IMG/VR virus record: IMGVR_UViG_3300020411_002386
Coordinates: 1 to 51,293 of that record
DNA: 51,293 nucleotides
From: a virus
Reading direction: 5' to 3' (one strand)
How positions within the stretch are numbered: position 1 is the first letter of the stretch; each line of letters begins with the position of its first letter. The position numbers and the translations under genes are program-made. Shown here in pieces: positions 1 through 39,763 of this stretch. The notes below the pieces were generated by a model. That model worked only from the letters and a program-made list of their open reading frames with translations. It ran no database searches and was not told where the DNA came from.

Positions 1-88
1 ATTCTGGCCAAATATCTATAGACTCAACATAATCATTTAACATTAATCGATTATAATCTAATTTAATTGGTATTATTACATCATCCAT
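1..88 (-). CDS. 5' end of an unidentified protein, cut by the window edge
   Basis: An ATG at 88 opens a frame that stays open to the window edge (29 codons, beginning MDDVIIPIKLDYNRL). It overlaps the stop of the SDR-like gene upstream by 8 bases, the same tight packing as the rest of this block, so it is probably the next gene of the operon. Too little is visible to assign a function. Confidence 0.5.
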   Translation of the reverse strand, partial: MDDVIIPIKLDYNRLMLNDYVESIDIWPE

Positions 89-662
89 TCTCTGATGACC
101 TATCGGCTGTTAAAGTTATTTCTTCAATACACATTGGAGATTCTACAATATATTTAATACATTCGGCTACTTCTTCTACTGTTAATTTTTTTTCTTTGGG
201 GTGTAATTTATCAACATAAGGTGTATGCATATGACCTACGCTTATATAAGAACATTTAATACCTGGACTTACATTGGCTCTATTATGATTAATTGTCTGA
301 CATAAATTTTCAAGAGCTACTTTTTCAGCTCTATAACTAATATATTTTATCCAAGGTTGTTCTGTATTAATATGGTCTGTAATACTACCTATACCAATTA
401 AATGTCCAGAACGCCCTGACTCTTGCCAATTAACATATATTTTATGCATCATTCTTGCTTGAACATATGCTAATTTACCAACTAATGTATGAGCATTTAA
501 TATAACACCATCATATAAATCTGTATATTTTACAAATTTATTTTGTGTTTCTTCATCATTAAAATCCCAACCATTAGCTCTACTACAGAAATCACTATCT
601 AAAACTTTTGATATTCCAGATGCTAATCCGGTCTCTGGGTTACCGGTTGTTATAAATTTCAT
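81..662 (-). CDS. Short-chain dehydrogenase/reductase-like protein
   Basis: 193 aa, near the lower limit for the SDR family (about 250 aa). The N-terminus reads TGNPETGLASG (residues 6-16), matching the TGxxxGxG nucleotide-binding loop. VILNAHT (53-59) sits where SDRs have NNAG. Ser93 in GIGSIT and Y110-RAE-K114 match the Ser-Tyr-Lys catalytic set. It is therefore probably an NAD(P)-dependent oxidoreductase, though divergent. Its start overlaps the end of the sulfotransferase-like gene upstream by 23 bases. The substrate cannot be read from the sequence; the setting among nucleotide-sugar and oxygenase genes suggests a biosynthetic or decoration step. Confidence 0.65.
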   Translation of the reverse strand: MKFITTGNPETGLASGISKVLDSDFCSRANGWDFNDEETQNKFVKYTDLYDGVILNAHTLVGKLAYVQARMMHKIYVNWQESGRSGHLIGIGSITDHINTEQPWIKYISYRAEKVALENLCQTINHNRANVSPGIKCSYISVGHMHTPYVDKLHPKEKKLTVEEVAECIKYIVESPMCIEEITLTADRSSENG

Positions 663-1224
663 TTAATTCCTCATAAGTAGTATTTTTATATTCTAAGTCT
701 TCAGCTTTATACGGGCTTCTCTCAGGTGGTATATGATCAATATCCAAATCATAAGTTTTTATTTTATCTAATTGACTTGGATTATAATCTTCATATTCAA
801 TATGATATCTAGATCCCCATGGAAACAATTCAGATTCTAATTCAAGCATTCTGTCCCAATTTTTAATTGTGTCAATAGTTCTTAAATCAACTTCTAATGG
901 GGGAAGCTTTCGATTAGTATATTCGTGATCTTCTCTTATTAATCTTTCTATGGTATGACTTATTAATTGTTTTAATTTATTTTTTCTAGTAACTCTAATA
1001 TACACCCAATTTTCTGGATTGTCAACAACAAAAGGTCCATGAGCATGAATTACAAGAGGTGTTCTAGACATGTATAGGTCTTTCATGTTTTGCATAAAAC
1101 TAAAACCTGAGCTCATAAAAGAATTTCCTATAAAAAAAGGTGTGTAACCTTTTTGAGATAAATCATATGCTATTCTTTGTGTACCGCATCTACCGAAACT
1201 TTTTATCACGACATTCGTTAACAC
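640..1224 (-). CDS. Sulfotransferase-like protein
   Basis: 194 aa. Translation starts at a GTG; an AAAGGAG ribosome-binding site lies 7 bases before it. Residues 9-16 (SFGRCGTQ) resemble the PAPS 5'-phosphosulfate-binding loop of sulfotransferases (SxGRSGTT), and WVYIRVTRKNKLKQLISHT resembles the 3'-phosphate-binding Arg...Ser segment. Together these support a PAPS-dependent sulfotransferase fold, more divergent and shorter than cellular members. An APS-kinase-like gene at 47496-47957 of the same genome could supply PAPS (inference). A generic P-loop protein is the alternative. Confidence 0.5.
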   Translation of the reverse strand: MLTNVVIKSFGRCGTQRIAYDLSQKGYTPFFIGNSFMSSGFSFMQNMKDLYMSRTPLVIHAHGPFVVDNPENWVYIRVTRKNKLKQLISHTIERLIREDHEYTNRKLPPLEVDLRTIDTIKNWDRMLELESELFPWGSRYHIEYEDYNPSQLDKIKTYDLDIDHIPPERSPYKAEDLEYKNTTYEELNEIYNNR

Positions 1225-1927
1225 TTATGAACTCCTTTAAATATTTGTTTTCTTTACCATGTGCATAGTCTAATGCAGGATGTCTATTATACATTACTGG
1301 TATATAATCTGTTCTAGTACTATGTGCTACATGAGTCCAACCGCCTTCTCTACCAACTGCATATTTACAAGTAGCTAGATACATTACATTTTCTCTTATA
1401 CTCATATGAGATCCTAGTTCTATAGGATTATTCCATTCCTTGAGATTTTTATAAATTATTTCACAGTCTATATCATTTATATTTCTATTCATAGTATAGT
1501 CGTGACCATTATATTCTTGTACAGGACCTTGGAAATAAAAACATACAAAATCATTTGTTGCATTGCCATTAAAAGCAGATGGATAATATTCATGTCGTAA
1601 TGTACAAGGAACAGTTTGAATTTGTTCTTCTGTGTAATTAGGTATTTTTAAATCTTTTAAATTTTCTTTCCAAGTCTTTTGTGGGTCTTCATCTAAATGA
1701 ATAGTTGGTCTGCCAACAATATGTACTGGGCCTTTAGGTAAATCAAAGCATTGATATATTTCTACAAATCTATTAAAGTTATAATCATTTAAATGAAGGT
1801 TGATTTCAAGTTCTGTTTCATATTCTTGATTAGTTAATAACCAACTTATATTTTGCCATAATCCTCCAAGTCCCATATTATCATAATTAAAAAACATCAC
1901 TTTATTTTGATTCATAATATTGCTCAT
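1190..1927 (-). CDS. Glycosyltransferase-like protein, function uncertain
   Basis: 245 aa. The early segment NMGLGGLWQNISWLL resembles a glycine-rich donor-site loop. The late segment YLATCKYAVGREGGWTHVAHS resembles the GT9/heptosyltransferase pattern in which a glycine pair is followed by a His near the nucleotide-sugar site. These are weak, family-level resemblances; no exact family is recognised. It overlaps both neighbours (26 bases with the oxygenase-like gene, 35 with the sulfotransferase-like gene). The start is either the ATG at 1927 or the one at 1915, which has a weak GAG upstream. Confidence 0.4.
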   Translation of the reverse strand: MSNIMNQNKVMFFNYDNMGLGGLWQNISWLLTNQEYETELEINLHLNDYNFNRFVEIYQCFDLPKGPVHIVGRPTIHLDEDPQKTWKENLKDLKIPNYTEEQIQTVPCTLRHEYYPSAFNGNATNDFVCFYFQGPVQEYNGHDYTMNRNINDIDCEIIYKNLKEWNNPIELGSHMSIRENVMYLATCKYAVGREGGWTHVAHSTRTDYIPVMYNRHPALDYAHGKENKYLKEFISVNECRDKKFR

Positions 1928-2585
1928 AGTTTTTTGGTAAATTTATTCCTTCAAATCCAACATAGTGTTCATTGTATTTTTTATATGATCTATCTAATAA
2001 ATTCATATAATTTTTATCTTCTAAGTTACTATCCCATGGCGCACCAAAGGCAAGAGTAAATTTAGTATCAGTATGAGTATTCAACATATAGTGTGGCCAT
2101 CTGCCACTCATTATAAATGGTTTATCAATATCAGCTTCTAAATAAACATCGTCTTTATCAGACATGAATACTAAATCATCTACATGACCCTGTAGAACAC
2201 ATCTGAATTTATGTTGTAAGGTATTAAATTTTTTAGGGCTACAATCAATATGTGGTGGATTAGCTTCTCCGGGTAAAGTAGTTATTATCATTATTCTACT
2301 TTTTCCGGTTATTGGAAATAATACATCTTCACACCATTGTATTAATGTTGGAAATTCATTGGCTATTTCAGTCCAGGCATATGGTTCTCTATAAAGATCT
2401 AGATCAGATTTCTTAGCCCTTACATGATCTGTATCATGAAACATTAATGGTACATGCCAGCAATTTCTGAAATCATCTCTAATAATTTTTAAAAAATCTA
2501 CATCATTTAATTTTTCTAAACAATCTAATGGAGGATTTTCCATATCTAATGGTAAGTATAATAATTGTTTTATTTTGTCAAGCAT
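1902..2585 (-). CDS. 2-oxoglutarate/Fe(II) oxygenase-like protein (Asp/Asn hydroxylase type)
   Basis: 227 aa. H112-I-D114 inside NPPHIDCSP, followed by FRCVLQG and H165 in GRWPHYMLN, gives the His-x-Asp...His iron triad of the cupin-type aspartyl/asparaginyl beta-hydroxylase family. The usual C-terminal Arg that binds 2-oxoglutarate is not obvious; Lys175 (THTDTKF) lies near that place. Known relatives hydroxylate protein side chains or small molecules. This is the first of four such genes in 7.5 kb, overlapping the SET gene by 16 bases. The substrate is unknown. Confidence 0.7.
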   Translation of the reverse strand: MLDKIKQLLYLPLDMENPPLDCLEKLNDVDFLKIIRDDFRNCWHVPLMFHDTDHVRAKKSDLDLYREPYAWTEIANEFPTLIQWCEDVLFPITGKSRIMIITTLPGEANPPHIDCSPKKFNTLQHKFRCVLQGHVDDLVFMSDKDDVYLEADIDKPFIMSGRWPHYMLNTHTDTKFTLAFGAPWDSNLEDKNYMNLLDRSYKKYNEHYVGFEGINLPKNYEQYYESK

Positions 2586-3037
2586 TGTTTTTCTTTCTGT
2601 GCATACCAGCTTAATGGTAAATTTAAAAATTTATAATCTTCGCCCGTTACTTTTCCACGACAACTTTTAGTCCCACAATTACATGGATCAATTGGATTCT
2701 TTTTAGTTAACATAAATGTTCCATAATCTATTGTTAAATATTCATGAGCTCTTATATGTCTTAAAGCTCTAAACACTACTTGTCCATCTATATAAACATT
2801 AGGTTCACAGCTATGATTAATATATCCTTGATATTCTTCGCCTTCTGGTAAATCAATAACTAGATCTTTATCTATTAATAAACCTTTATACCATTTATGT
2901 TCTGATAAATGTCTAGCTAAACCACCTACAACAAATACTATATCATCTTTTTCTATTATATCAGTAGTAGTTCTACAAAGCCCGTGAACTTTATGTTTTC
3001 TTACAATTGTATTTTTATTGACGTGGAAAAAATGCAT
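2570..3037 (-). CDS. SET-domain protein lysine methyltransferase
   Basis: 155 aa from the ATG at 3037. The SET signature is complete: NHSCEPN at residues 74-80 (SAM site and pseudoknot), LTIDYG at 101-106 with the catalytic-type Tyr105, then a post-SET-like cysteine cluster C119-x-C121-x4-C126 (PCNCGTKSC). SET proteins transfer a methyl group from S-adenosylmethionine to lysine in proteins; small stand-alone viral examples such as chlorovirus vSET are known. It lies between two 2OG-oxygenase genes, overlapping both, so it is co-translated with them. Targets may be host or virion proteins (inference). The start is set by the first ATG; a GAGG lies 12 bases upstream, further than usual. Confidence 0.85.
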   Translation of the reverse strand: MHFFHVNKNTIVRKHKVHGLCRTTTDIIEKDDIVFVVGGLARHLSEHKWYKGLLIDKDLVIDLPEGEEYQGYINHSCEPNVYIDGQVVFRALRHIRAHEYLTIDYGTFMLTKKNPIDPCNCGTKSCRGKVTGEDYKFLNLPLSWYAQKEKQCLTK

Positions 3038-3779
3038 TGAATTTTGGATCCTCAAAATTAGCCATTACTAAGGCATGATATCTAACTGCTCCTGATTTAT
3101 TATTTACCGCATGATTATGCTGAGTATTAATTATCCATGCTTCATTTAAAGCATAATGTTGAAAGTGATGTTTACCATCCATATAAACAATCATCTCTGT
3201 ATCTTTTGTAGTTATAAGTGGAATATGTAAATAAGCATGAGTATAAATTTCTTCATAATAACAATGACTATGCCAATTAATTCTTTCACTATCATCTACT
3301 TTAGATACCATAATTCTATCACACATATCCCAAGTAACAAATCGTTCTATAATACTTCTAATGTATGGTAATTTTAATTTAGTATCAACTAAATGTTCTG
3401 GGGGAACTCTACCATTTTCTAATAAATGTTTCTTACCTAATACCTCTAAGAAATCTTTAGTTTCACCAAAACCAAAATCAGGATCATCACACCAATTTCT
3501 TAATATCTTCGAAGACCAATAATTACTAGTTCCAGCTCCTCTTACATTTTTAACATCATTATTATATCCACTCCATTGACCATTAAGATTTGATAATTCA
3601 TCTTTAATTTGTTTTTCATTTAAATTTAAATTATCTGCTAAACGATAATGAGGAGTATATAGTAATTCTTTGGCAATAGGATGTATAGCTCTATCAGGCG
3701 AACATCTAGGATTACAAGATGGATCAAAGGCAGGAGCAGATTCTACATTTTGTAATCGATCATGTAATTCGTAAGACAT
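3015..3779 (-). CDS. 2OG/Fe(II) oxygenase-like protein with HxH in place of HxD
   Basis: 254 aa. GGGGAGG eight bases before the ATG at 3779 fixes the start (MSYELHDRLQ). The C-terminal half follows the Asp/Asn hydroxylase-like pattern: INWHSHCYYEEIY...LHIPLIT, then NEAWIINTQHNHAVNN and RYHALV. The first iron motif is H170-S-H172, where the three related proteins in this cluster have His-x-Asp; the distal His is 221 or 223 and the 2-oxoglutarate Arg is 233. The change may alter metal binding or activity. The N-terminal 150 residues match nothing I recognise, apart from a short Cys-rich stretch (SCNPRCSPDR). Confidence 0.65.
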   Translation of the reverse strand: MSYELHDRLQNVESAPAFDPSCNPRCSPDRAIHPIAKELLYTPHYRLADNLNLNEKQIKDELSNLNGQWSGYNNDVKNVRGAGTSNYWSSKILRNWCDDPDFGFGETKDFLEVLGKKHLLENGRVPPEHLVDTKLKLPYIRSIIERFVTWDMCDRIMVSKVDDSERINWHSHCYYEEIYTHAYLHIPLITTKDTEMIVYMDGKHHFQHYALNEAWIINTQHNHAVNNKSGAVRYHALVMANFEDPKFNAFFPRQ

Positions 3780-4254
3780 ATTGATATCCTCCCCAATGAA
3801 GTTTCTCATGGGTTACATTCCAATTAAAACAAGAATGTTTAGCAAAATATTCTAATAATTTTGGACTTTCTTCTCTACTAACCCATATATTTTCATAACC
3901 AAAATTCATAGCTGTTTCTGTTAATTGGTCTAATGTATCTAAACCTCTATTTAGATCTGCCTTCCACCCTCCAAAATTATAATTTCTATCTCGAGTATGT
4001 CTAGACATAACTCTTATAGATCCATCATATTCTGGATGTTCTATTGCTGCACTATAATAAATTAAATACCATTTCTTTTGGTTTTTATAATAAGGTTCAA
4101 AGTCCCAACCTAATCGGGCAAACTTAGTGTATTCAAACCATGGTCTTTTAAAATAATTATCTTGAAGTCTATGACCATAAGTTTTTTCGAAAAGTCTTTT
4201 GACTTCTAATCTATGATCATTAATAGTACAAATTTTGTAAATCGCTCGTTCCAT
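3760..4254 (-). CDS. Unknown protein, possibly GNAT-like
   Basis: 164 aa, Trp- and Tyr-rich (KKWYLIYYSAAIEHPEYDGSIRVMSRHTRDRNYNF, split across two strands of a likely sheet). The plan of a strand pair, an arginine-rich turn, a helix (GLDTLDQLTETAMNFGYENIWV) and a final strand resembles N-acetyltransferases, but no clear acetyl-CoA loop is seen. The protein at 39167-39763 has a loosely similar plan. It is embedded in the oxygenase cluster with overlaps on both sides. There is no clear ribosome-binding site before the ATG at 4254, so translation may depend on coupling. Confidence 0.6.
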   Translation of the reverse strand: MERAIYKICTINDHRLEVKRLFEKTYGHRLQDNYFKRPWFEYTKFARLGWDFEPYYKNQKKWYLIYYSAAIEHPEYDGSIRVMSRHTRDRNYNFGGWKADLNRGLDTLDQLTETAMNFGYENIWVSREESPKLLEYFAKHSCFNWNVTHEKLHWGGYQYVLRIT

Positions 4255-4837
4255 CTAAACTAAACATTAATGCTATTCTGGGTTTATCTGACATATTAAT
4301 TACCGCATGAGGATACCCTATATTCAAGAAATAGGCAACACCATTTTCTAAATTATATGCTTCTAATTTATTATCTCTCCTAAAAAGATTTACAACGTTT
4401 CTATCACCATATATTGGAACAATACATCTTACTGCATATGATATATCATAATCAACATGAAAAGGAATAGTTTTACCTGGAGCAAGTTTTGTTATTCTTA
4501 CTCTACTAGCAGGAGCCGTTAATTGTGTTATTATCTCTTCAAAATAACTTCCCGTGTAATCTTCTGTAGGTATATTATATAAATGCTCTTCTCTGCGCTT
4601 TAAACGCTCTTTAATACTAGCTGTATAAGGTAATATCTCACTTGGAGTAGTTAAATTAATCTGTTCAAAGTTGTCGTATACTTGTTTAACTAATTCCATA
4701 TGATTATCACATAACATAGGATTAGCAGATCTTACATCTACAAATTTTTCTGCTAATAGATCAGTTGACTCTTGTAATCTTTTTAGATCAATATCTAAAT
4801 TAAAATCAGCTAGAGATGGTAAATCGTGTTTTTTCAT
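4220..4837 (-). CDS. 2OG/Fe(II) oxygenase-like protein (Asp/Asn hydroxylase type)
   Basis: 205 aa. All key positions are visible: H127-V-D129 in TIPFHVDYD, H177 in GYPHAVIN and R187 in KPRIAL, spaced as in cupin-type aspartyl/asparaginyl beta-hydroxylases. The N-terminal 100 residues are helical and specific to this protein. The ATG shares ATGA with the stop of the aminotransferase-like gene upstream, so the two are probably translationally coupled. Likely an active dioxygenase; substrate unknown. Confidence 0.75.
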   Translation of the reverse strand: MKKHDLPSLADFNLDIDLKRLQESTDLLAEKFVDVRSANPMLCDNHMELVKQVYDNFEQINLTTPSEILPYTASIKERLKRREEHLYNIPTEDYTGSYFEEIITQLTAPASRVRITKLAPGKTIPFHVDYDISYAVRCIVPIYGDRNVVNLFRRDNKLEAYNLENGVAYFLNIGYPHAVINMSDKPRIALMFSLDGTSDLQNLYY

Positions 4838-5616
4838 TCTCTATATAATTCCTCTATTGCATCTGTTAAACATAATCTTGCAGGGTTATTACCTCTTCTT
4901 TTAATATTATATATTGGATCTTCACTAGTGGCAAGCCATACTGTATCACTAGGAGTTATTTTTAATTCATTACAGAGTTGCTTTTGATATTTTTCTAGTG
5001 TATTATATACAAGGTCAATAGGAAGTTCTATAAGTTTTTCTCCTAAAGACATTGAATAATAATTATAATACTTAGCTGATCTAATTAAAAGTTCAAAGCC
5101 TCTTATTGGTTCTCTGGTCCAGGCCCAACCAATTCTATAATTCCTTACACCAAAACATTTACTTAAACTAAAGAATACCATTTCAACATTATCTGGTATT
5201 TCAAATTTTTTTATTTTAGTAGAAGCAACATATGCTAGGTCTAATATAACAGGTTTATGTGTTGGTATATCATGATAGTTACCATCAATAGAAGAGGGAT
5301 AACTCCAATATATCACATCACCTTCTGGCTTACCTTGAACCCATTGATAGTCACCTTCTCTCATTTCTATGGTTCTTTTTTCCATAAACATCCAATAATT
5401 AAGACCTTCTGTAATACCGTTTAAAGGATATTGATATTCAAAAGGACTTAAATCACAATAAGGTTCTAACCATTCAGTTATTCTATCAGCATTAAAATGA
5501 TTTACTTCATCATGTATTCTTAATGTATGAGCAGAGCAAATTAATTTTATAGGGTTAATTGGAAACCCTCTTATTGCATTACTTCTTTCTATTAGTTGTT
5601 TTGGTGTGATGGTCAT
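4834..5616 (-). CDS. PLP-dependent aminotransferase-like protein (fold type I)
   Basis: 260 aa from the ATG at 5616, placed 7 bases after AAGGA. GITEGL (67-72) fits the phosphate-binding turn, D126-L-A-Y129 fits the Asp and Tyr that contact the pyridine ring, and S150-L-S-K153-CFG-V with R161 fits the internal-aldimine lysine loop of class I/II aminotransferases. At 260 aa it is about 100 residues shorter than normal; the substrate-arginine C-terminal domain seems reduced. Acting as aminotransferase, decarboxylase or another PLP enzyme cannot be separated. The next gene starts on its ATGA, and the desaturase overlaps its start. Confidence 0.7.
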   Translation of the reverse strand: MTITPKQLIERSNAIRGFPINPIKLICSAHTLRIHDEVNHFNADRITEWLEPYCDLSPFEYQYPLNGITEGLNYWMFMEKRTIEMREGDYQWVQGKPEGDVIYWSYPSSIDGNYHDIPTHKPVILDLAYVASTKIKKFEIPDNVEMVFFSLSKCFGVRNYRIGWAWTREPIRGFELLIRSAKYYNYYSMSLGEKLIELPIDLVYNTLEKYQKQLCNELKITPSDTVWLATSEDPIYNIKRRGNNPARLCLTDAIEELYRE

Positions 5617-6151
5617 CGTGATTTCCTTCAAAAGGGGCGAAAATATTTACCCACCATCTATTCACTGGTCCGCTGTCATTATGACCTACAAGGTTTAACA
5701 TTCCATAAAATAGATAGGAAAATATAAACACCATGATTAAATAAAAAATTAATATAGGGTGTATAAAGAACGCAATTATATAAGTGAATACAAAAATTAT
5801 ATAACGATACTCGTGAAAAAATACTACTCTTGGATTATGATATAAATCTTTAACAAATTTTCTTGGTATGTTTTTTACTCTCCAAGTAGAGAATAATATC
5901 TCATGCCATTTTTTATATAATGGACTATGAGGATCATTTGGTGTATCGGGATTAGCATGATGCATTCGATGAACTCCGCACCAAGCAATAGGAGATTGAC
6001 AACCACATAATAGGCCGAGGTATAACATTATTGCTTCTTCAACTTTACCAGTTTTAAATTCCCGGTGAGCAAAGTATCTATGATACCCCATAGTAATTCC
6101 AATAGCAACTATAAAATAATATACAATATAAGATTGTAACAAATGAATCAT
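5579..6151 (-). CDS. Membrane fatty-acid (acyl) desaturase
   Basis: 190 aa. Three histidine boxes bind the di-iron centre: H24-RYFA-H29, H61-RM-H64-H65 and H178-DD-H181-H182, with hydrophobic spans around 5-20, 42-58, 116-136 and 136-155. This is the acyl-CoA/acyl-lipid delta-9 desaturase pattern; such enzymes put a double bond in a fatty acyl chain in the membrane. The protein stops 8 residues after the last box, so it lacks the C-terminal tail of cellular enzymes (about 290 aa). The start at 6151 uses ATGA overlap with the preceding gene. Electron donors would have to come from the host. Confidence 0.88.
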   Translation of the reverse strand: MIHLLQSYIVYYFIVAIGITMGYHRYFAHREFKTGKVEEAIMLYLGLLCGCQSPIAWCGVHRMHHANPDTPNDPHSPLYKKWHEILFSTWRVKNIPRKFVKDLYHNPRVVFFHEYRYIIFVFTYIIAFFIHPILIFYLIMVFIFSYLFYGMLNLVGHNDSGPVNRWWVNIFAPFEGNHDDHHTKTTNRKK

Positions 6152-6534
6152 TGAAGTATTTTGTCTCGTTCCTCTAATAATTCCCATGGCTGTTTACCTG
6201 TATATGGTAAAAACTTACTTCCTGGAAACAATAAACAAGCGGTTAAATCATTAAATAAAACCACTGCACTAAATGTTCCTGTATCTTGATTTACAAAAAG
6301 ACCAAATCTACCTGGATAAGATCTACCACTATTTGCTGCTTGTAAAAATCCAACTCCATCTATTAATAATTCCTCGTCTGCATTTTTAATAGTATCGAAT
6401 AAATCAGATCTTTCGGTACAATGTAACATAGCAAAAAATTTCATAGATTTAGGTGGAGGTTCTTCTGCAATGGCATCTGCACTTTCAAACCATACTGCTA
6501 AAAAAACTATTGTTAAAAATACAAGATTTCTCAT
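6148..6534 (-). CDS. Small exported protein of unknown function
   Basis: 128 aa with a strong AGGAGG site 4 bases before the ATG. The N-terminus (MRNLVFLTIVFLAVWFESADA) is a signal peptide, probably cleaved after the ADA or AIA near residue 21-23. The mature part has two Cys (HCTERSD and TACLLFPG) that could form a disulphide in the periplasm. No family recognised. It shares ATGA with the desaturase. Confidence 0.75.
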   Translation of the reverse strand: MRNLVFLTIVFLAVWFESADAIAEEPPPKSMKFFAMLHCTERSDLFDTIKNADEELLIDGVGFLQAANSGRSYPGRFGLFVNQDTGTFSAVVLFNDLTACLLFPGSKFLPYTGKQPWELLEERDKILQ

Positions 6535-6535
6535 T

Positions 6536-6946
6536 TCACCTCCTATAACTGCTGCTATTATTAATTTTCTCTCCGCCTATATTAAAGGCAAAAGATACTC
6601 TTGGGTGATTTTTAAATTCCATATATTCATAGATATTATCTTTATTTCTATCACCACCATTAGCAAAAACAATATCTTGTTTTTGTTTATCTAATAAATG
6701 ATATATTGCTTTATTTGCAGTGTTATCATCATCATTAAATGTTATAACTTGATCTACGCATCTAATACTTTCTAATATTTCTATTCTTTCTTCTATGTCT
6801 AACCAATGTATACCTTTTTTACGGACTAACCACCTATCACTATTTAAACCAACTACTAATGCATTTCCTAGCATTGATGCTGATTTAAGATATCTTATAT
6901 GACCATTATGAATTGGGTCAAAGCCACCTGTTACTAATACTATCAT
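6536..6946 (-). CDS. Cytidylyltransferase-like nucleotidyltransferase
   Basis: 136 aa from the ATG at 6946. TGGFDPIHNGHIRYL carries the HxGH signature of the cytidylyltransferase superfamily (TagD, RfaE C-domain), and NNSSSYRR near the end replaces the ISSTxxR nucleotide-binding motif. Members join a nucleotide to a phosphorylated alcohol or sugar. Substrate not predictable. The start overlaps the stop of a 28-codon membrane ORF (ATGA). Two other nucleotidyltransferases of this superfamily are in the window (29971-30420 and 47230-47601). Confidence 0.82.
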   Translation of the reverse strand: MIVLVTGGFDPIHNGHIRYLKSASMLGNALVVGLNSDRWLVRKKGIHWLDIEERIEILESIRCVDQVITFNDDDNTANKAIYHLLDKQKQDIVFANGGDRNKDNIYEYMEFKNHPRVSFAFNIGGEKINNSSSYRR

Positions 6947-7029
6947 TCTTCCATCCACAACCAAATTAAAAGACCTAAAAGAATACCAAATGATATTGGT
7001 AAAATTAAAAAAAAGAATATATTACTCAT
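6943..7029 (-). CDS. Tiny single-span membrane protein (28 aa)
   Basis: ATG at 7029 encodes MSNIFFFLILPISF followed by GILLGLLIWLWMEE, one hydrophobic helix. Its stop shares ATGA with the nucleotidyltransferase start and its ATG overlaps the end of the upstream oxygenase-like gene by 8 bases. That packing argues it is real, but there is no strong ribosome-binding site and it is very short. Confidence 0.45.
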   Translation of the reverse strand: MSNIFFFLILPISFGILLGLLIWLWMEE

Positions 7030-7516
7030 AAATACAGCCTACAATATGAACTCTAACTCCTTTACTAGCATTAAAAGCAGTATGTGGTAAAGTTGTATTT
7101 GTTAAATATATTTTTCCAAGATCTAACATATAAACTTTATCTTGTATTACCATTCGGCAATCAGGAGCAGTTATAAGTGGTATATGAATTCTCTTTGTCA
7201 TATCCGAATGCATAGTATAACATACTTTTGGATGCATAGGCATTATTCTAGACCTAACCATATTATATTTTTCAAATATACGATTAAGTTTAGGAAGATC
7301 CCACAAAGGATATTTAAAATAATTTTCTGGATATTGTAATTTAGATACTCTACCAGCAGAATTAATACATTCTTCTAGTGGATCTAAATCTGGTTTATGA
7401 CCTTGAAGACCTACTTGAGGAATAGTTGCCCATCCTTTTTTAAGAGCAACTTTAACTGTATTCACTTCATTTAATATTTCAGTTAAATTAATTTCTTCTA
7501 AGACTTCAATGTGCAT
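7022..7516 (-). CDS. 2OG/Fe(II) oxygenase-like protein (Asp/Asn hydroxylase type)
   Basis: 164 aa; GGAG six bases before the ATG at 7516 decides the start. H103-S-D105 in YTMHSDMTKRIHIPLIT, H145 in TLPHTAFN and R155 in GVRVHIVG give the full iron and 2-oxoglutarate set. Its catalytic half is close in layout to the HxH protein at 3015-3779 (both have HIPLIT), so these two may be diverged paralogues. It is the first gene after the structured intergenic region at 7530-7680. Confidence 0.75.
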   Translation of the reverse strand: MHIEVLEEINLTEILNEVNTVKVALKKGWATIPQVGLQGHKPDLDPLEECINSAGRVSKLQYPENYFKYPLWDLPKLNRIFEKYNMVRSRIMPMHPKVCYTMHSDMTKRIHIPLITAPDCRMVIQDKVYMLDLGKIYLTNTTLPHTAFNASKGVRVHIVGCIYE

Positions 7517-7529
7517 TATATTCTCCAAG

Positions 7530-8562: not shown

Positions 8563-9579
8563 TTATGGTTTAGCTGCGTCTAAACCTGGAAGATAATCTG
8601 ACATACCTAATAGATCACCAATTGATTTACCAGGAAATATATCAAATTTTCCTGACATAATTGCTAATTCTATTTCTTCAGCTGCCATTCTTACCTCGGC
8701 AGGCATATTAGTATATGGAGCCATTTCAACCATTCCGGTATCCATTCCACCCCAAGTATCTTCAGACTTCCAAGTACCTTCTAATGCCGCCGCTACTCTT
8801 TCAACATAATAAGGACCCCATTGGTCTATAATAGCTGTCAATTGAGTTTCTGGTGCAAATTGAATCATATCAGATGCTTGGCCAAAAGCATAAACACCCT
8901 CTTTAGCGGCAACTTGTAAAGCGGCCGGAGAATCAGTATGCTGTGTTATAATATCAGCGCCTTGTTGAATTAATACAGTAGCAGCGTCTGCTTCTTTACC
9001 CGGATCATACCAAGTATTAACCCAAATAACATCGATATCAAAATCAGGATTTACAGAAGTAGCACCTAACCAAAATGCATTAATACCACGAATAACTTCA
9101 GGAATAGGGAATGAAGCAATGTAGCCTGCTTTGCCTTTTTCACTCATCATACCAGCAATTACTCCCTGTACATATCTTCCTTCATAGAACTTAGAAGAAT
9201 ATACAGCCATATTATCTGCAGTTTTATATCCTGTTGCATGTTCAAATTTTACATCTGGAAAATCTTTTGCAACTTTTAACATTTGCTCCATATATCCAAA
9301 TGATGTAGCAAATATAATATCATGACCAGATAGAGCCATTTGTCTCATAACTCTTTCAGCATCTGGACCTTCTGCAACTGATTCTACATATGTAGTTTCT
9401 ACAGCTTCTCCAAAAGCTTCTTCAACCATTTTACGACCTTGGTCATGCATATATGTCCAACCGTGATCACCTGTTGGCCCAACATAAACAAAGCCAACCT
9501 TTAAGGGGTCGGCCATAGCGGATGTAATTAGAAATAGTGGCATTATTAGGAACGCCAATCCTCTTATGAAAAATTTCAT
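8563..9579 (-). CDS. BMP/PnrA-family periplasmic solute-binding protein
   Basis: 338 aa, full length for the basic membrane protein family (ABC-importer receptors, many binding purine nucleosides). A signal peptide (residues 1-23, ending ITSAMA) precedes KVGFVYVGPTGDHGWTYMHDQGR, the typical N-terminal ligand-loop start. GPDAERVMRQMALSGHDIIF, IPEVIRGINAFWLGA and QQGADIITQHTDSP follow family order. The mature N-terminus has no lipobox Cys, so it is soluble in the periplasm. No permease or ATPase is in the window, so it probably serves a host transporter, like phage PstS proteins. It is flanked by two similar hairpins and has an AAAGGA site before the ATG. Likely host-derived. Confidence 0.9.
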   Translation of the reverse strand: MKFFIRGLAFLIMPLFLITSAMADPLKVGFVYVGPTGDHGWTYMHDQGRKMVEEAFGEAVETTYVESVAEGPDAERVMRQMALSGHDIIFATSFGYMEQMLKVAKDFPDVKFEHATGYKTADNMAVYSSKFYEGRYVQGVIAGMMSEKGKAGYIASFPIPEVIRGINAFWLGATSVNPDFDIDVIWVNTWYDPGKEADAATVLIQQGADIITQHTDSPAALQVAAKEGVYAFGQASDMIQFAPETQLTAIIDQWGPYYVERVAAALEGTWKSEDTWGGMDTGMVEMAPYTNMPAEVRMAAEEIELAIMSGKFDIFPGKSIGDLLGMSDYLPGLDAAKP

Positions 9580-9630
9580 AGGTATCCTTTCCGGGAATTA
9601 AAAGATTAAAATTGTAATTTGAAAAATAAG

Positions 9631-9648
9631 AATGTCCGTGGGGACATT
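9631..9648 (-). repeat. Leader hairpin upstream of the BMP-family gene
   Basis: AATGTCC (9631-9637) and GGACATT (9642-9648) form a perfect 7-bp stem with a 4-base loop within the 120-base gap 9580-9699. A weak -10-like TATAAT lies at 9661-9666 on the minus strand without a good -35. The rest of the gap holds only the hairpin at 9671-9696 and the ribosome-binding site. Confidence 0.5.
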
Positions 9649-9670
9649 AGTATATATCTTATTATACGGT

Positions 9671-9696
9671 AAAGTGGTGACAAAAGCCACCACTTT
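9671..9696 (-). terminator. Hairpin after the Na/Pi transporter gene, probable terminator
   Basis: AAAGTGGTG (9671-9679) pairs with CACCACTTT (9688-9696), a 9-bp stem with loop ACAAAAGC. On the minus strand only three T follow, so termination may be partial; on the plus strand TTTTT follows. The GGTGGCTTTTGTCACC core repeats that of the terminator at 8513-8537. Confidence 0.65.
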
Positions 9697-9699
9697 TTA

Positions 9700-10137
9700 T
9701 TAAAATTTTCCTAAAAATTTTGCTATGTGTCCTACAAAAGGTAATAGTGATAGAGCCATTAATAGATTAACTCCTGTGTGAGCCATAGCTATTCGTAATG
9801 TATCTCCTTTTGGCCAACCATCTGAAACAAAGAAACCTGCTAACCATATAGTCCCTGTTGTACCTATATTAGCTCCTAATACACAAGCGACTGCAGCTGG
9901 TAATGGTAATGCTCCAGATGCTACTAATGCAATAATTGCTGTAGTTGATAAAGATGATGATTGCCATGCGAGGGTCATAATAATTCCACCAAAGAACATA
10001 TAAATTGGATTACCTAAAAACCATTGTAAATGTTCTATGTTGCCCATTTCCTTCATACCACCAGAAAACATTTTAAGTCCAATATAAAAAACCACCAACC
10101 CTATTAGAGCAGTGATAACAGGATTACCTAATTCCAT
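9700..10137 (-). CDS. Half-size Na+/phosphate cotransporter-like protein (NptA/PF02690 type)
   Basis: 145 aa from the ATG at 10137, which has a strong AAGAGGT site. Q59-SSS and GANIGTT (88-94) are the two signature motifs of a single Na/Pi-cotransporter repeat; about four hydrophobic spans (5-25, 44-58, 63-80, 84-102) plus one at 118-135 are seen. Cellular members carry two inverted repeats and are over 300 aa, so this is one repeat and would need to dimerise to transport. Together with the BMP protein it suggests nutrient uptake during infection. It ends the operon synthetase-like/tRNA/pyrF/pyrD/transporter. Confidence 0.85.
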   Translation of the reverse strand: MELGNPVITALIGLVVFYIGLKMFSGGMKEMGNIEHLQWFLGNPIYMFFGGIIMTLAWQSSSLSTTAIIALVASGALPLPAAVACVLGANIGTTGTIWLAGFFVSDGWPKGDTLRIAMAHTGVNLLMALSLLPFVGHIAKFLGKF

Positions 10138-10168
10138 TTTAATTACCTCTTTCCAAAGCTTTTTGTAT

Positions 10169-10876
10169 TTATTTTTCATTCTTTAAATCTACCATGTTAA
10201 TGATTTTAGATATTTTCCATGGTGTAAAACATACAGTTCCTAAACTGAAATGATCTGCACCATAGTCGCGATAGCCTCGAACATCATCTATAGTAGTGAT
10301 GCCTCCACCAGCTATAACTTCTACATGTGGATGTACCTTTTTAATATACTTTAATATTCTTAAGGTATAAGGCATTATTTTTTTACCACTTAAACCCCCT
10401 TGAGGGACGGGTAAAGTATTACTTGCGTGGATTTGTTTAAATCCAGAATCTACAAGAAAATCTATTTCATCGTTCATAAATGTTGGGGGTATTTTGGCAA
10501 TACACCATCTTCTAGGACTTCTTGTAAAACTAGCAAAGCCTGGCCAAACATTAGGCGTAGTATTAGGACAACCTAAATTAATTTCAACATTTGCTTGCTT
10601 GGGAATTTTTCTATATAGTTCATGCCAATCAGACATTTCTATAGCGCTTATACTCATTACATCACGAGGATGTTTTAATCCATATTCAATACCTTGGTTT
10701 TTTAAACCTAGTTTATTAACCCAGCCATCTTTAGTATAACGTAATGTTTTTAAAATTTGTTTGAATCTTCCAGGCCTTGGTTTTAATGTCCAGGTTCCAG
10801 ATACTGAAAGAACATCCCAGCCTGCAGGTCTATTAGATTTTAAATAATTTCCAAAAGGTGCTGCTATAAAAAACAT
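10169..10876 (-). CDS. pyrD: Dihydroorotate dehydrogenase-like protein
   Basis: 235 aa, shorter than cellular PyrD (about 300-340). NLGCPNTTP, IAKIPP, HASNTLPVPQGGLSGKKI and VIAGGGITTIDDVRGYRDYGADHFSLGT are the FMN- and orotate-binding motifs in family order on a TIM barrel. It oxidises dihydroorotate to orotate in UMP synthesis. The shortened N-terminus lacks a membrane-anchor helix, so it resembles soluble class 1 enzymes. It overlaps the end of pyrF by 13 bases, giving two successive late steps of the pathway (the phosphoribosyl step could come from the host or from 36863-37342). Confidence 0.85.
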   Translation of the reverse strand: MFFIAAPFGNYLKSNRPAGWDVLSVSGTWTLKPRPGRFKQILKTLRYTKDGWVNKLGLKNQGIEYGLKHPRDVMSISAIEMSDWHELYRKIPKQANVEINLGCPNTTPNVWPGFASFTRSPRRWCIAKIPPTFMNDEIDFLVDSGFKQIHASNTLPVPQGGLSGKKIMPYTLRILKYIKKVHPHVEVIAGGGITTIDDVRGYRDYGADHFSLGTVCFTPWKISKIINMVDLKNEK

Positions 10877-11466
10877 TCTATTGGGTTATCCTTTAAAGGC
10901 CTTCCTATTACTAAATAATCAGCACCATTAGAAATTGCTTCTTCTGGCGTACTCACTCTTACTTGATCATCATTTGATTCTTTTAATCTTATTCCTGGAC
11001 AAATTCTTTTAAAAGAATGAACCCTATCATAGTAATTAAACAGTGATAAATCTTGAGGAGATAATACCATATTAAATTTATAATATAATAAATTATCACA
11101 TATTCTTTTATATATGTCACTCTGTTTTTCCCAATTACCAGGAAAAGAAGTTAAATGAGAAACAATAGCAATATTAATATCATTTTTTAAAGGAGATATA
11201 TGCTCTATACATTTTTCACCATTTTCGAAATGTATAGTAGTCATATAAACATTTTGTTTAATTAACCATTTAATAACGGTTTCAACTGTATTTGGAATAT
11301 CATATAATTTCAAATCAACAAATACTTTATAGTCTTTAAACTCATATAAATTAGGTAATAAAGTATGATTGATCTTTACACCATATATTTTATCTTTTAT
11401 TGGTTCTAAAAATTCGATAGCTTTATCGATTTCCATACCATCTAATGCAGCAAAAATTTTATTCAT
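10864..11466 (-). CDS. pyrF: Orotidine 5'-phosphate decarboxylase
   Basis: 200 aa, close to the bacterial norm of about 230. VDLKLYDIPNTV contains the catalytic Asp-Lys-x-x-Asp set, and CPGIRLKESNDDQVRVSTPEEAISNGADYLVIGRPL holds the phosphate-binding end of the barrel. It converts OMP to UMP. Its ATG is 14 bases after the encoded CCA of the tRNA, so the tRNA must be cut out of a polycistronic mRNA, or the gene has weak independent translation. It is transcribed from the late promoter at 12452-12459 as far as can be seen. Confidence 0.92.
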   Translation of the reverse strand: MNKIFAALDGMEIDKAIEFLEPIKDKIYGVKINHTLLPNLYEFKDYKVFVDLKLYDIPNTVETVIKWLIKQNVYMTTIHFENGEKCIEHISPLKNDINIAIVSHLTSFPGNWEKQSDIYKRICDNLLYYKFNMVLSPQDLSLFNYYDRVHSFKRICPGIRLKESNDDQVRVSTPEEAISNGADYLVIGRPLKDNPIECFL

Positions 11467-11480
11467 TATAAATACTCATT

Positions 11481-11567
11481 TGGCTTTGGGGGGTGGATTC
11501 GAACCACCACGTCCTTAAGGACAATACATGAACAGTGCATCGCGTCTACCGTTTCCGCCACCCCAAA
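11481..11567 (-). tRNA. Chimeric class II tRNA: Leu-like body, anticodon GUU (Asn)
   Basis: Cloverleaf: acceptor TTTGGGG/CCCCAAA, D-arm GCG..GCG with GAAACGGTAGAC loop, anticodon arm ATGCA-CTGTTCA-TGTAT (one G.U), long variable arm TGTCC-TTAA-GGACGT, T-arm GGTGG-TTCGAAT-CCACC, G73 and encoded CCA (11483-11481). D-arm and variable arm match bacterial tRNA-Leu almost exactly. The loop gives anticodon GTT (11533-11531), and U1-A72 and G73 are those of tRNA-Asn, not Leu (A73). Base 37 is C, where a purine is almost universal. It sits 9 bases after the aminoacyl-tRNA-synthetase-like gene on the same strand. Confidence 0.88.
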
Positions 11568-11576
11568 CTATTTAAC

Positions 11577-12428
11577 TCAATACGGATGCATTGGGTCTAT
11601 CTGTTGTTCTTTATTATCTAGGGCACTAATTAATCTTGTTAATCCTATTCCTCCACCGACTCGTGGAAAAAAGTTTAAGCCCAAGAAATCTTCTAATTCT
11701 TTTTCTACTCTATCTTTTCCGAATAGATCAAATAATAAATTAGCATACTCTCCGTTTGTAATAGTATGAAATGTATTTCTCATTTGTTCTACATCACATG
11801 ATCTTTCTGCTGATCCTATTGTTTCCATCCCACCTAATATAACATCAATCTTTTTACTATGAACACCGTTTTCATATCTACTCATATTCCAAAACGGTGA
11901 TGTGAATTCAGGAAAATCTGTTATCATAGTTGTACCGAATTCTTCATGCATTCTGTTTTCATGTTCTGCTTCTAGTTCAGCATTAGCATCTAATTCGAAA
12001 TGTCTTTGCCAAGCTTCATAAGTTCTTTCTTCTGGAGAATCAAATCCCATCCATTGAACTAATTCATATTCCATTCTTTTAAGATCATCTATTGTACCTG
12101 GCATTTCAAATTCAAACATTGGAAAGATTATATCATGTCTTCCAGGAATGGCATTTGGTTCTTGTCTATACGAAGTTGAGACACAAAAAAAACCCGGAGT
12201 GTCGGGCTTAGTGAGTAATTCGTGTTCTAACCACATTTGTCCTGTTTGAGGCAATGGCCAGACTTCGTTGGCGTACTTATATGTTGCAACATTGAATGGG
12301 TCTTCGCATGCTGCTAATATACTTAATCTGTTTTGTGTATGAACTTCTAGAAACCCTTTGCCCAAAAAAAAGGACCTGAGAAGGTCCGTGGCGTTTGTAA
12401 ATTTCTGTGGATCAATTAGCTGTGTCAT
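11577..12428 (-). CDS. Minimal class IIb aminoacyl-tRNA synthetase-like protein (AsnRS/AspRS type, no anticodon domain)
   Basis: 283 aa. Class II motifs are in order: GFLEVHTQ (25-32, motif 1 region), S86-YRQE-90 with R97-HD and FPMFEFE (103-109) as motif 2, and G258-GGIGLTR-265 as motif 3; PLPQTGQMWLEHELL fits the amino-acid site. The motif 2 and 3 arginines are present, so ATP chemistry should work. The N-terminal OB-fold anticodon-binding domain (about 100 aa) is absent. Similar free cores exist as archaeal AsnRS-related asparagine synthetases and as EpmA. The neighbouring odd Asn-anticodon tRNA suggests a matched pair, or amide synthesis. It has an AAAGGAAA site and a late promoter inside a dyad. 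Confidence 0.82.
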   Translation of the reverse strand: MTQLIDPQKFTNATDLLRSFFLGKGFLEVHTQNRLSILAACEDPFNVATYKYANEVWPLPQTGQMWLEHELLTKPDTPGFFCVSTSYRQEPNAIPGRHDIIFPMFEFEMPGTIDDLKRMEYELVQWMGFDSPEERTYEAWQRHFELDANAELEAEHENRMHEEFGTTMITDFPEFTSPFWNMSRYENGVHSKKIDVILGGMETIGSAERSCDVEQMRNTFHTITNGEYANLLFDLFGKDRVEKELEDFLGLNFFPRVGGGIGLTRLISALDNKEQQIDPMHPY

Positions 12429-13033: not shown

Positions 13034-13438
13034 ATGTATGAATATAGATGTAAAATAAGCAATGTAGTAGATGGAGATACTGTTGATATTGATATTGACT
13101 TAGGATTTGGTGTCTGGATGGCCAATCAAAGAATAAGATTATATGGTATTGATACTCCAGAATCTAGAACATCAGATGAAGAGGAAAAGAAATATGGCAT
13201 AGCAGCTAAGAATTTTTTAGAAAAGTGGCTGGCTCCGGGAAATATTATATTAAAAACTCATAAAGATGCTACTGGAAAGTTTGGTAGAATACTTGGAGAA
13301 CTATGGTATGGAGATGTAAATATTAATTTAAAATTAGTTGAAAATCATCATGCAGTAGAATATCATGGACAGTCTAAAAAAGAGATTGCAGAGATGCATA
13401 TAGCAAATAGAGAAAAGGTGGAGCTAAATGAAAGTTGA
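13034..13438 (+). CDS. Staphylococcal-nuclease-like (thermonuclease) protein
   Basis: 134 aa from the ATG at 13034, with AAAGG eight bases upstream. VVDGDTVDIDIDLG, RIRLYGIDTPESR (Arg and the Asp/Glu metal ligands), YGIAAKNFLEKWL and GKFGRILGELWY follow the SNase order, so it is probably a Ca-dependent nuclease. No signal peptide, so it acts in the cell, perhaps on host DNA. It overlaps the TauD-like gene by 11 bases, which would be made from the same late mRNA. Confidence 0.92.
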   Translation: MYEYRCKISNVVDGDTVDIDIDLGFGVWMANQRIRLYGIDTPESRTSDEEEKKYGIAAKNFLEKWLAPGNIILKTHKDATGKFGRILGELWYGDVNINLKLVENHHAVEYHGQSKKEIAEMHIANREKVELNES

Positions 13439-14327
13439 TAATTTGAAATTTGGTTATGAAGTAAGAGATGTAGATTATAGTAGTAAAAAGGACGCAAAAG
13501 AAATAGAGCAACTTATTGGTGATGGTAGATTTGTAATAGTAAAAAATCCTAAATTCGTAGAACCCGATACTGTAGCAGAATTGTATAGTAATATAGGTAT
13601 ACTTGGCTACCAGAATGATACTGTAGAATCAGCTGGTAGAGGTTTAGCTAAAGGAAATACAGCATTTGTTCGTGTTCGAACAGACTCTATGTTCGGCGGA
13701 GATCCAGAAAATGGTCACGAACTTAGGTGGCATAATGCTGCAGCTAATAGACACACAGCAGATCAAATTGTTTCTATGTATATGGTTGCTCCTAGTGAAA
13801 AAGGTTCTGGGTTAACAGGTTTTACAGATGCACAAACTGCTTTTTATGATTTACCAGAAGAGGAACGAGACTTATTAGAAATGTATACCATTGAATTTCC
13901 TGTATGGGACAATGATAAAAACTGGAGTAAAGGTGGTAAAGGATATTATAAGTTTATCTATAAAAACGATGAAGAACAATTAGCATTTCTAGATGCTGAT
14001 GGAAAAAGACCTCATGATAAACAAATACAACGTAGACCTTTAATAACAGAACATCCAGCTAATGGTAAAAACGGGTTTCAATGTAATTTTAATCTAGTTC
14101 ATAAAATTGTAGAATTAGGTACTGTAGAAAAAACTCAAGAATGGTTAAAATGGTTTAAAGAACATACATTACAAGATAAATACGTTTATTGGCACGACTG
14201 GGACATATATGATATAGCATTCAGTGACCAATTACATAGTTTACATAAAAGAACTCCTTATAAAGGTTATAGAGAATTATTCCGATCTGGAATTAATCAC
14301 GATGACGGAAAGGATTTTTGGTATTAA
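13428..14327 (+). CDS. TauD/TfdA-family protein with a halogenase-type HxA iron motif
   Basis: 299 aa, full length for TauD-like Fe(II)/2-oxoglutarate enzymes. LRWHNAAANRHTADQIVSMYMVAP aligns with the TauD stretch WHTDVTF, but the facial-triad Asp is Ala: H102-N-A104. The distal His273 (SDQLHSLH) and the 2-oxoglutarate Arg (282 or 286) are present. A His-x-Ala/Gly motif is the hallmark of Fe/2OG halogenases (SyrB2 type), where halide replaces the carboxylate. Loss of activity or a different use is possible. It overlaps the nuclease start-to-stop, and an ATG with GGAG is clear. Confidence 0.85.
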   Translation: MKVDNLKFGYEVRDVDYSSKKDAKEIEQLIGDGRFVIVKNPKFVEPDTVAELYSNIGILGYQNDTVESAGRGLAKGNTAFVRVRTDSMFGGDPENGHELRWHNAAANRHTADQIVSMYMVAPSEKGSGLTGFTDAQTAFYDLPEEERDLLEMYTIEFPVWDNDKNWSKGGKGYYKFIYKNDEEQLAFLDADGKRPHDKQIQRRPLITEHPANGKNGFQCNFNLVHKIVELGTVEKTQEWLKWFKEHTLQDKYVYWHDWDIYDIAFSDQLHSLHKRTPYKGYRELFRSGINHDDGKDFWY

Positions 14328-39166: not shown

Positions 39167-39763
39167 CTATACTTTATGAAAGTTTAATACAAATGAATGA
39201 TCCATTATATGGTTTCTAGGTATTAGATCATGATAATGAACATTAGATAGAAATCCTTTTATCTTAATTCCATTCACTGAATACATCATTAAGTTTAATC
39301 TATTTAGTTGACGTCTTTGTCTCCATTTTATCTCTTTTGCACCATTAGCATCTACATGACGTGTAAAAAACATAATACTAATACCCTCTTTAGCTAATAT
39401 AGGGTTTAAACAATGTTCATATGCCCAATGTTCTGTTTTCCAAAATTGAGATAGTAATGGTTGCTTTTCTCTATTTAGGTTATATGCTCTTAATTTTCTT
39501 ATAACATGTGGTGCTACTTGAGGACATTTTTTAAGATAATATCCATACCAAGGTTTATTATCTTTTAAATATAATACATTATAATCTCTTTGATATGCTC
39601 TCATATATTCATAATGATATGGATTGTCATCCAGGCTCTGAGGCTGTCTATCTTTTGTTTCATGATGTGTCAGCCATAACCATTCATCGATTAAATCATC
39701 GTCATGGTCATCTGTAATATAAAATTTTACATTATCTTGATCTGTATCAAGCAGTTGCTTCAA
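39167..39763 (-). CDS. Unknown protein in the halogenase cluster
   Basis: 198 aa; TTG start at 39763 with AAGGA nine bases upstream, inside the end of the ligase gene. His-, Trp- and Tyr-rich, with NVLYLKDNKPWYGYYLKKCPQ and a C-terminal HYHDLIPRNHIMDHSFVLNF. The layout is loosely like the GNAT-like protein at 3760-4254. It may be an acyltransferase using the product of the ligase (speculative). Confidence 0.6.
   Translation of the reverse strand: MKQLLDTDQDNVKFYITDDHDDDLIDEWLWLTHHETKDRQPQSLDDNPYHYEYMRAYQRDYNVLYLKDNKPWYGYYLKKCPQVAPHVIRKLRAYNLNREKQPLLSQFWKTEHWAYEHCLNPILAKEGISIMFFTRHVDANGAKEIKWRQRRQLNRLNLMMYSVNGIKIKGFLSNVHYHDLIPRNHIMDHSFVLNFHKV

Follow-up and report, generated by a model that had tools for sequence, protein, structure and literature searches.

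Many ocean phages carry a four-gene module, DES-AT-GNAT-OG2, which encodes a desaturase, a small aminotransferase, a GNAT-like protein and a 2-oxoglutarate (2OG) oxygenase and is either present or missing as a unit. The existence of the module is well supported; its chemistry we infer. The window, i.e. the whole 51,293-nucleotide stretch of virus record IMGVR_UViG_3300020411_002386 analyzed here, is part of the genome of an uncultured marine phage of the T4-like type, with genes for DNA polymerase B, a DnaB-type helicase, UvsW, and other T4-type proteins; its DNA polymerase gp43 is 55% identical to that of Phage C48C1 and 46% to those of cyanophages. Positions 81 to 7528 are filled by 13 minus-strand ORFs of 128–265 amino acids each. 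On its left side, the cassette is cut by the end of the contig and may extend further. The initial annotation had counted fourteen overlapping genes here; the overlaps were found in 10 of 12 adjacent pairs, but the count is 13, and because overlap is not enriched versus the rest of the window (44 of 67 pairs, Fisher p 0.32), it does not point to coordinated expression as had been suggested. The region had also been taken for an island serving modification or biosynthesis and not for an ordinary phage module, which agrees with the recurrence of its genes together, but they do not form a single set: two submodules (DES-AT-OG2-GNAT and OG3-SET-(GT)-SDR) were distinguished, with OG1 and PP belonging to the backbone. 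In comparison with two related contigs, dN/dS was below 0.55 for all island genes (0.05–0.13 for OG2, SET, and SDR); the genes are thus real, and purifying selection acts on them.

OG2 has 118 relatives in IMG/VR contigs, and linkage was counted in 33 nonredundant OG2 loci with usable flanks at a distance limit of 9 kb. The same small AT accompanied OG2 in 33/33 loci, exactly one of three GNAT-like families in 33/33, and DES in 32/33, and a reciprocal search started from AT gave OG2 in 50 of 55 well-flanked loci. Homologues that are scattered and never co-occur, the pattern initially named as speaking against an island, were not seen, the SET loci being linked as well (9/9). Seven records, which had been selected for OG2, carry both OG2 and AT, and 19 other contigs related by gp43 carry neither. 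In a syntenic, cassette-less relative (G002), PP, OG1, OMP, BMP, AsnS, and Cwl are kept in order, and the genes from DES to SDR are missing. At the matching places, it has homologues of PP (6148..6534, minus strand; a small protein with a signal peptide-like start; 43% identity) and of OG1 (7022..7516, ORF 7022–7528, minus strand; a PF05118-type oxygenase, Pfam 5.2e-10, 39.8 bits; 65% identity); as both are kept there, they were assigned to the backbone and not to the cassette. That unrelated auxiliary genes gathered in a recombination-prone region with no common function is very improbable and already disfavored. The surroundings are mosaic, OG4, ST, and CTT are not common to the nearest relatives, and the window's AT is nearer to that of two loci with the other module variant (L035 and L054, 60–62% identity) than to that of the near relatives L003 and L007 (45–46%). 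However, the 33/33 linkage, the both-or-neither presence, and the replacement of GNAT types by each other with no loss argue against such hitch-hiking, as does the fact that order and strand of the module genes differ from locus to locus.

OG2 (4220..4837, minus strand) is a PF05118-type 2OG oxygenase (Pfam 4.9e-6, 26.9 bits, above the family cut-off of 22.6 bits) and the most conserved gene of the module, with a mean identity of 79% in 32 phages and an HxD...H...R motif that is invariant in its relatives. By score, OG2, OG1, and OG3 are members of the PF05118 Asp/Asn hydroxylase family, whereas OG4, the last of four proteins originally assigned to this type, had no match in Pfam; Asp/Asn hydroxylation remains putative. 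Profile searches of the PDB with OG2 or NAT yielded chance matches only. AT (4834..5616, minus strand; 260 amino acids from ATG) is a miniature PLP enzyme that alone matched no Pfam family; PF00155 was matched by 12 of 41 AT relatives, and NCBIfam gave only a weak GntC match (0.047). Its AlphaFold2 model (pLDDT 92) superimposed on a 389-amino acid aminotransferase over 248 residues (Z 18.7). In the family alignment, G67, T69, D126, K153, R161, and R247 are invariant and Y129 nearly so, including the Schiff-base lysine K153 and the PLP-binding D126 and R161. AT is thus predicted to be a complete, shortened fold-type-I aminotransferase. An assignment of its substrate from the structure was rejected, since every fold-type-I aminotransferase scored about equally, near Z 18. 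DES (5579..6151, minus strand) is a membrane fatty-acid desaturase (PF00487, FA_desaturase, 1.8e-7) with the histidine boxes HRYFAH, HRMHH, and HDDHH; its match to the DesA family (4.5e-11) was below cut-off.

The GNAT-like protein of the window, NAT (3760..4254, minus strand), belongs to one of three mutually exclusive families found beside OG2. NAT had no match in Pfam, and its GNAT fold was assigned from an AlphaFold2 model (pLDDT 92; Z 12.1, rmsd 3.5 over 141 residues to 1xeb). Structural matches included RimI and N-terminal acetyltransferases but tied at Z 10–12, and a subfamily assignment was rejected. Inspection of the alignment by eye showed no pyrophosphate loop R/Q-x-x-G-x-G/A (RxxGxG/A), so acyl transfer by NAT stays putative. 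Homology of the three GNAT-like families was not demonstrable by profile comparison, and they could therefore be analogous or distantly related. Among 50 loci having a GNAT, 19 had the NAT type, and two GNAT types never occurred in one locus. A methyltransferase accompanied the GNAT2/GNAT3 type in 25 of 31 loci and the window's NAT type in 0 of 19, giving two module variants: the NAT type without methyltransferase, as in the window, and the GNAT2/3 type with a SAM methyltransferase. The latter often also occurs with FMN reductase, peroxiredoxin, and further oxygenases; FMN reductase and methyltransferase are naturally fused in three loci. The TauD-type profile family is present in 33 of the 50 loci. 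The window's TauD-type protein (13428..14327, plus strand), of the kind accompanying OG2 in other phages, has HxA at the iron site, where its WHNA aligns with the WHSD of a dioxygenase of solved structure.

One group of phages has a second unit, OG3-SET-(GT)-SDR, in addition. The SET-domain methyltransferase (2570..3037, minus strand; PF00856, 2e-9, 38.2 bits, cut-off 22.4 bits) has NHSC and DY motifs, invariant in six relatives, and post-SET cysteines. Its orthologues were found in nine contigs, and no SET protein similar to it was found in deposited phages. OG3 (3015..3779, ORF 3015–3809, minus strand; PF05118-type oxygenase, Pfam 1.5e-5, 25.3 bits), in which HSH replaces HxD, lies upstream of SET in all nine loci. 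SDR (81..662, minus strand), which adjoins SET in 9/9 loci and has counterparts of 94% and 85% identity on two related contigs, is short-chain dehydrogenase-like, with TGxxxG and YxxxK motifs and below-cut-off matches to PF00106 (0.0025) and NCBIfam SDR (1e-4). GT (1190..1927, minus strand), a possible glycosyltransferase judged by eye, is conserved in five of the nine loci, with 60–63% identity at the matching place in relatives. Of the enzyme types initially listed, SET and the desaturase were corroborated by Pfam, and AT by its model and the PF00155 matches of its relatives; the glycosyltransferase- and sulfotransferase-like proteins matched no family.

Of 50,697 deposited phage records, only that of Pelagibacter phage Mosig had the core, and among 84,980 cellular genomes OG2 occurred on one short MAG contig only. 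Given its recurrence in many ocean phages, the core looks like an undescribed virus-specific pathway; literature searches found no description of such a combined gene set, in line with the initial statement that none was known. In Mosig EXVC030M (MT647606), Mosig_00072-00080 include OG2 (71% identity), AT (47%), DES (35%), and a GNAT, with TauD, methyltransferase, FMN-reductase, and peroxiredoxin genes in the same run. Unlike the window, Mosig has the GNAT2/methyltransferase variant beside tail-fiber genes and no SET; its genes are annotated singly, and no mention of the module was found in its announcement. Mosig on Pelagibacter ubique HTCC1062 is a cultured phage–host pair with the module, in which the product can be sought directly. 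The hemO-pcyA/X-alaS cassette of aquatic phages is likewise a small set of enzyme genes found intact or broken up in uncultured marine and freshwater phages (PMC11480375), but it comprises other enzymes, with known product and activity. For pelagimyophages, the parts of the report available to us describe a large hypervariable island, an Asp/Asn β-hydroxylase called core to all, and a stearoyl-CoA desaturase in one group; those parts report no linked AT-GNAT-DES-oxygenase module (PMC7029224).

We tentatively favor, at somewhat less than even odds, the reading that a metabolic cassette of mosaic makeup was acquired horizontally in a variable region and would, in the course of infection, tailor one small molecule derived from an amino acid or acyl group. 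The four core enzymes, whose PLP residues, GNAT fold, histidine boxes, and HxD...H are retained, would act in series on a molecule built from an amino acid, an acyl chain, or both: AT would make or exchange the amino group, the GNAT protein acylate it, DES act on an acyl chain or a lipid-bound intermediate, and OG2 hydroxylate the product, which the variable partners (TauD-type, methyltransferase, SET, SDR) may tailor. Most likely, the membrane or surface of the infected cell would be changed, or a product needed by the phage supplied. The FMN reductase, methyltransferase, peroxiredoxin, and ScoE-like TauD partners at other loci favor a small-molecule product. 2OG oxygenases of unexplained purpose abound in marine T4-like phages; the strictly co-inherited module ties one to fixed partners and turns such oxygenases into a testable pathway. 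If SAR11 membranes or surfaces are remodeled, this bears on the infection of some of the ocean's most abundant bacteria. Several neighboring proteins have no family match.

The ornithine-lipid pathway (OlsB/OlsA, OlsC, OlsE) similarly uses a GNAT-fold acyltransferase, a PF05118-type oxygenase (OlsC), and an FA-desaturase-superfamily enzyme (OlsE) on one acyl-amino acid, but unlike the module it has no aminotransferase. Ornithine-lipid biosynthesis was rejected because the OlsB and OlsA types were missing: PF13444 (OlsB) matched in 0/8 records (the window and seven other OG2 records) with controls matched, and PF01553 (OlsA) in 0/8 with controls matched in 10/14, the eight records being possibly incomplete.

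Proteins are the substrates of SET enzymes and of many members of PF05118. That SET normally methylates protein lysines was counted against a small-molecule product. The main rival, somewhat unlikely in our judgment, is a protein-modification island in which the Asp/Asn-hydroxylase-type, SET, glycosyltransferase-like, and sulfotransferase-like proteins would hydroxylate, methylate, or otherwise decorate tail-fiber, other virion, or host-envelope proteins and thereby alter receptor binding or block superinfection. These protein targets of the SET and PF05118 families suit it, as does the strong constraint on OG2, SET, and SDR; that these evolve slowly would likewise be expected if their target were a conserved macromolecule, a further point against the small-molecule reading. 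The variable islands of pelagimyophages have been tied to host recognition (PMC7029224). Yet desaturase, aminotransferase, and FMN reductase are rarely protein modifiers, DES and AT are constant companions, and no substrate-like gene was seen conserved with the module. Tail-fiber or fiber-like genes lie in the fetched flanks of 22 of 50 loci, Mosig included, but in the window's clade the cassette sits in the replication half, near gp41 and ThyX; replication genes are near the module in seven loci, and never together with fiber genes. Two alternative locations are easier to reconcile with diffusible metabolism than with the modification of a single neighboring protein, a partial argument because in 21/50 loci the fetched flank contained no marker of either kind, replication or structural.

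It is quite improbable that OG2 modifies conserved host translation or nucleic-acid machinery (RNA, a ribosomal or similar protein), with AT, GNAT, and DES supplying or completing the modification. OG2 is 71–88% identical to the window's across phages whose AT is 27–71% identical, as expected if OG2 contacts a conserved host target, and the structural matches of NAT to RimI-type enzymes point the same way; however, these are fold-level ties, the desaturase would have no obvious role, and no RNA- or DNA-binding domain was seen. Returning to the small-molecule pathway, a bolder version, which we consider unlikely, holds that a virus-specific pathway with no cellular counterpart found makes a new acyl- or amino acid-derived compound in infected marine bacteria via HxN/HxA TauD-type enzymes. 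Among solved structures, the best match to a TauD-type partner is the isonitrile synthase ScoE (E 2e-5), whose iron site is HxD as opposed to HxN in the partner (HxA in the window); with such sites, chemistry other than hydroxylation is possible, e.g. halogenation, desaturation, or isonitrile-type oxidation.

A defense or counter-defense role was rejected, as PADLOC profiles gave no match to 10 island proteins at 0.001, and so was a RiPP (peptide) product, because by inspection the overlapping cassette genes leave no space for a precursor gene. A PHROGs search gave no match of known function, and the T4 late-promoter motif TATAAATA was absent from the cassette, its occurrences being below chance expectation. 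ST (640..1224, minus strand), with a sulfotransferase-like P-loop (KSFGRCGT, by eye), occurs among OG2 loci in the window only. For OG4 (1902..2585, minus strand), the only signs of a 2OG-like protein are the residues HID...PHYMLN and a weak resemblance to OG2; it has homologues in L016 and L036, but its nearest relatives do not conserve it at this position. CTT (6536..6964, minus strand), which is missing beside PP in G002 and lies outside the conserved core, is a nucleotidyltransferase (PF01467, CTP_transf_like, 1.6e-16) nearest to RfaE domain II, with a below-cut-off match to TIGR02199 (5e-21).

With 51.3 kb at approximately 32% G+C, the window represents part of the genome of an uncultured T4-like phage. 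Its T4-type genes include those for a family B DNA polymerase, 55% identical to that of Phage C48C1 and 46% to those of cyanophages, a DnaB-type helicase, and UvsW. On the minus strand at 81-7528, an island of thirteen genes, rather than the fourteen of the initial annotation, is transcribed in the order OG1, CTT (nucleotidyltransferase), PP (small protein with a signal-peptide-like start), DES (desaturase), AT (aminotransferase), OG2, NAT (GNAT fold), OG3, SET, OG4, GT (glycosyltransferase-like), ST (sulfotransferase-like), and SDR (short-chain dehydrogenase-like). Pfam supported SET, the desaturase, the nucleotidyltransferase, and three PF05118 oxygenases (OG1 to OG3), the SDR match being weak; a fourth Asp/Asn hydroxylase-type protein claimed initially, OG4, gave no family match above the cut-off. 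The same was true for PP, GT, and ST and, when searched with their own sequences, for AT and NAT, and the putative functions of GT, ST, and OG4 derive from motifs read by eye. Purifying selection acts on the island genes, most strongly on OG2, SET, and SDR. Gene overlaps, previously taken as a sign of coordinated expression, are frequent throughout the window genome and hence no special sign.

When 2.9 million viral contigs were scanned with OG2, 118 relatives emerged, the best 80 of which (73-88% identity) were fetched; as scans yield at most the best 80 loci, far relatives are under-sampled. IMG/VR contigs are fragments and partly redundant. Loci at least 97% identical in OG2 were collapsed, giving 51 non-redundant loci. 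Among the 33 with at least 5 kb on either side, including the window with its slightly shorter left flank, AT and a GNAT-like gene were located within 9 kb of OG2 in 33/33 and the desaturase in 32/33. Thus, the homologues co-occur rather than being scattered, with varying gene order and strand. In the reverse scan with AT, OG2 was present in 50 of the 55 well-flanked loci among the matches listed. Both genes occurred in 7/7 whole records, which had been picked for OG2, whereas none of OG2, AT, and SET was present in any of 19 whole records with a related DNA polymerase. Searches of 50,697 deposited phages with OG2, AT, and DES each matched only Pelagibacter phage Mosig EXVC030M; among 84,980 genomes, OG2 was found in a single 8.6 kb MAG contig, together with the module.

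Exactly one of three GNAT-like families (NAT, GNAT2, or GNAT3) was present in 50 of the 51 non-redundant loci from the best 80 of 118, and two together in none; the only locus lacking one lies on a contig of 5 kb. A SAM methyltransferase accompanied GNAT2/GNAT3 in 25/31 loci and NAT in 0/19 (p = 1e-8, an optimistic value because related phages were counted as independent). An FMN reductase showed the same split, with the same optimism in p, and is fused to the methyltransferase in three loci (L030:11874-13148, L039:2308-3591, and L045:11887-13170).

OG3, SET, and SDR form a second unit. The SET orthologue was found on nine fetched contigs, the window's arrangement being common to four; SET lay between OG3 and SDR in 9/9, and OG2 plus AT lay within the fetched flank in 8/9, the ninth contig ending early. 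Contigs L002/L006 and L003/L004/L007/L008 share the order DES-AT-OG2-NAT-OG1-type-OG3-SET-GT-SDR, which the window matches except for the OG1 position and the extra OG4 and ST. In some loci, remoter SET proteins (~30% identity, or 89-98 aa) lie close to the core. The tiny SET-like proteins (89-98 aa) of L118, L124, L135, and L136 immediately precede SDR, in runs that include several 2OG-oxygenase-like genes and a sulfotransferase-like gene. Both sub-modules also occur on one viral contig of 518,643 bases (IMGVR_UViG_3300017917_001342), which is either the genome of a jumbo phage or the result of misassembly.

The cassette-less relative G002, a 147 kb record with a polymerase 70% identical to the window's, is broadly syntenic from the DNA polymerase through PP. 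It retains Cwl, AsnS, BMP, OMP, OG1 (65%), and PP (43%) and lacks CTT and the DES-to-SDR stretch, where an unlike SDR and other small genes are found instead. This assigns OG1 and PP to the backbone and marks the cassette as a block that can be exchanged; the left end of the cassette lies outside the window.

The AlphaFold2 model of AT (pLDDT 92) aligned over its full length with 390-aa enzymes, and its PLP residues are invariant, which makes AT a miniature aminotransferase. NAT has a GNAT fold in which the usual CoA loop is missing. The iron-site motif is HxD...H in OG2 and HxH in OG3. A TauD-type protein of the window (13428-14327) has HxA where HxD is expected, and nearly all TauD-type partners of OG2 loci have HxN. 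In alignments to the isonitrile synthase ScoE and to a solved dioxygenase, this residue coincides with the iron-binding Asp, which suggests that these proteins may catalyze chemistry other than plain hydroxylation.

Of the loci with a marker gene in the flank, 7, including those of the window's clade, have replication genes close to the module and 22 have tail-fibre or fibre-like genes there; none has both. The constant partners (desaturase, aminotransferase, and GNAT) are metabolic enzymes, and the variable methyltransferase, FMN reductase, and peroxiredoxin fit the tailoring of a small molecule. Given these partners and the varied location, we tentatively prefer a small-molecule or lipid pathway to the main rival, modification of virion or host proteins. 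The nearest known scheme to such a pathway is that of ornithine lipids; the likeness is at most an analogy, because both acyltransferases (OlsB, PF13444; OlsA, PF01553) were absent from the eight records examined. Single genes of these kinds are already known from marine phages: PMC7029224 terms an Asp/Asn hydroxylase core to pelagimyophages, and PMC11480375 cites earlier reports of phage desaturases. In line with the initial annotation, which knew of no such combined set, searches of openly available literature revealed no description of the linked module, which we file among phage metabolic cassettes.

At 8563-10179, a BMP/PnrA-type substrate-binding protein (77-85% conserved among relatives) and a Na/Pi cotransporter-like gene represent cell-like transport in the phage backbone. 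Dihydroorotate dehydrogenase-like (PyrD) and orotidine decarboxylase-like (PyrF) phage genes follow at 10169-11466; they are adjacent in L002 too, and the PyrD homologue of G002 is located elsewhere. At 11481-12428, a tRNA-Asn gene adjoins a 283-aa class II synthetase-like protein (conserved at 65% in L002 and 82% in G002), too short for an anticodon-binding domain and possibly an asparagine synthetase of the AsnRS-paralogue kind. A tryptophan halogenase (PF04820, 3e-83), an AMP-binding ligase-like gene, and a 198-aa gene of unknown function at 39167-42417, in an order kept in G002, possibly constitute a second biosynthetic set.
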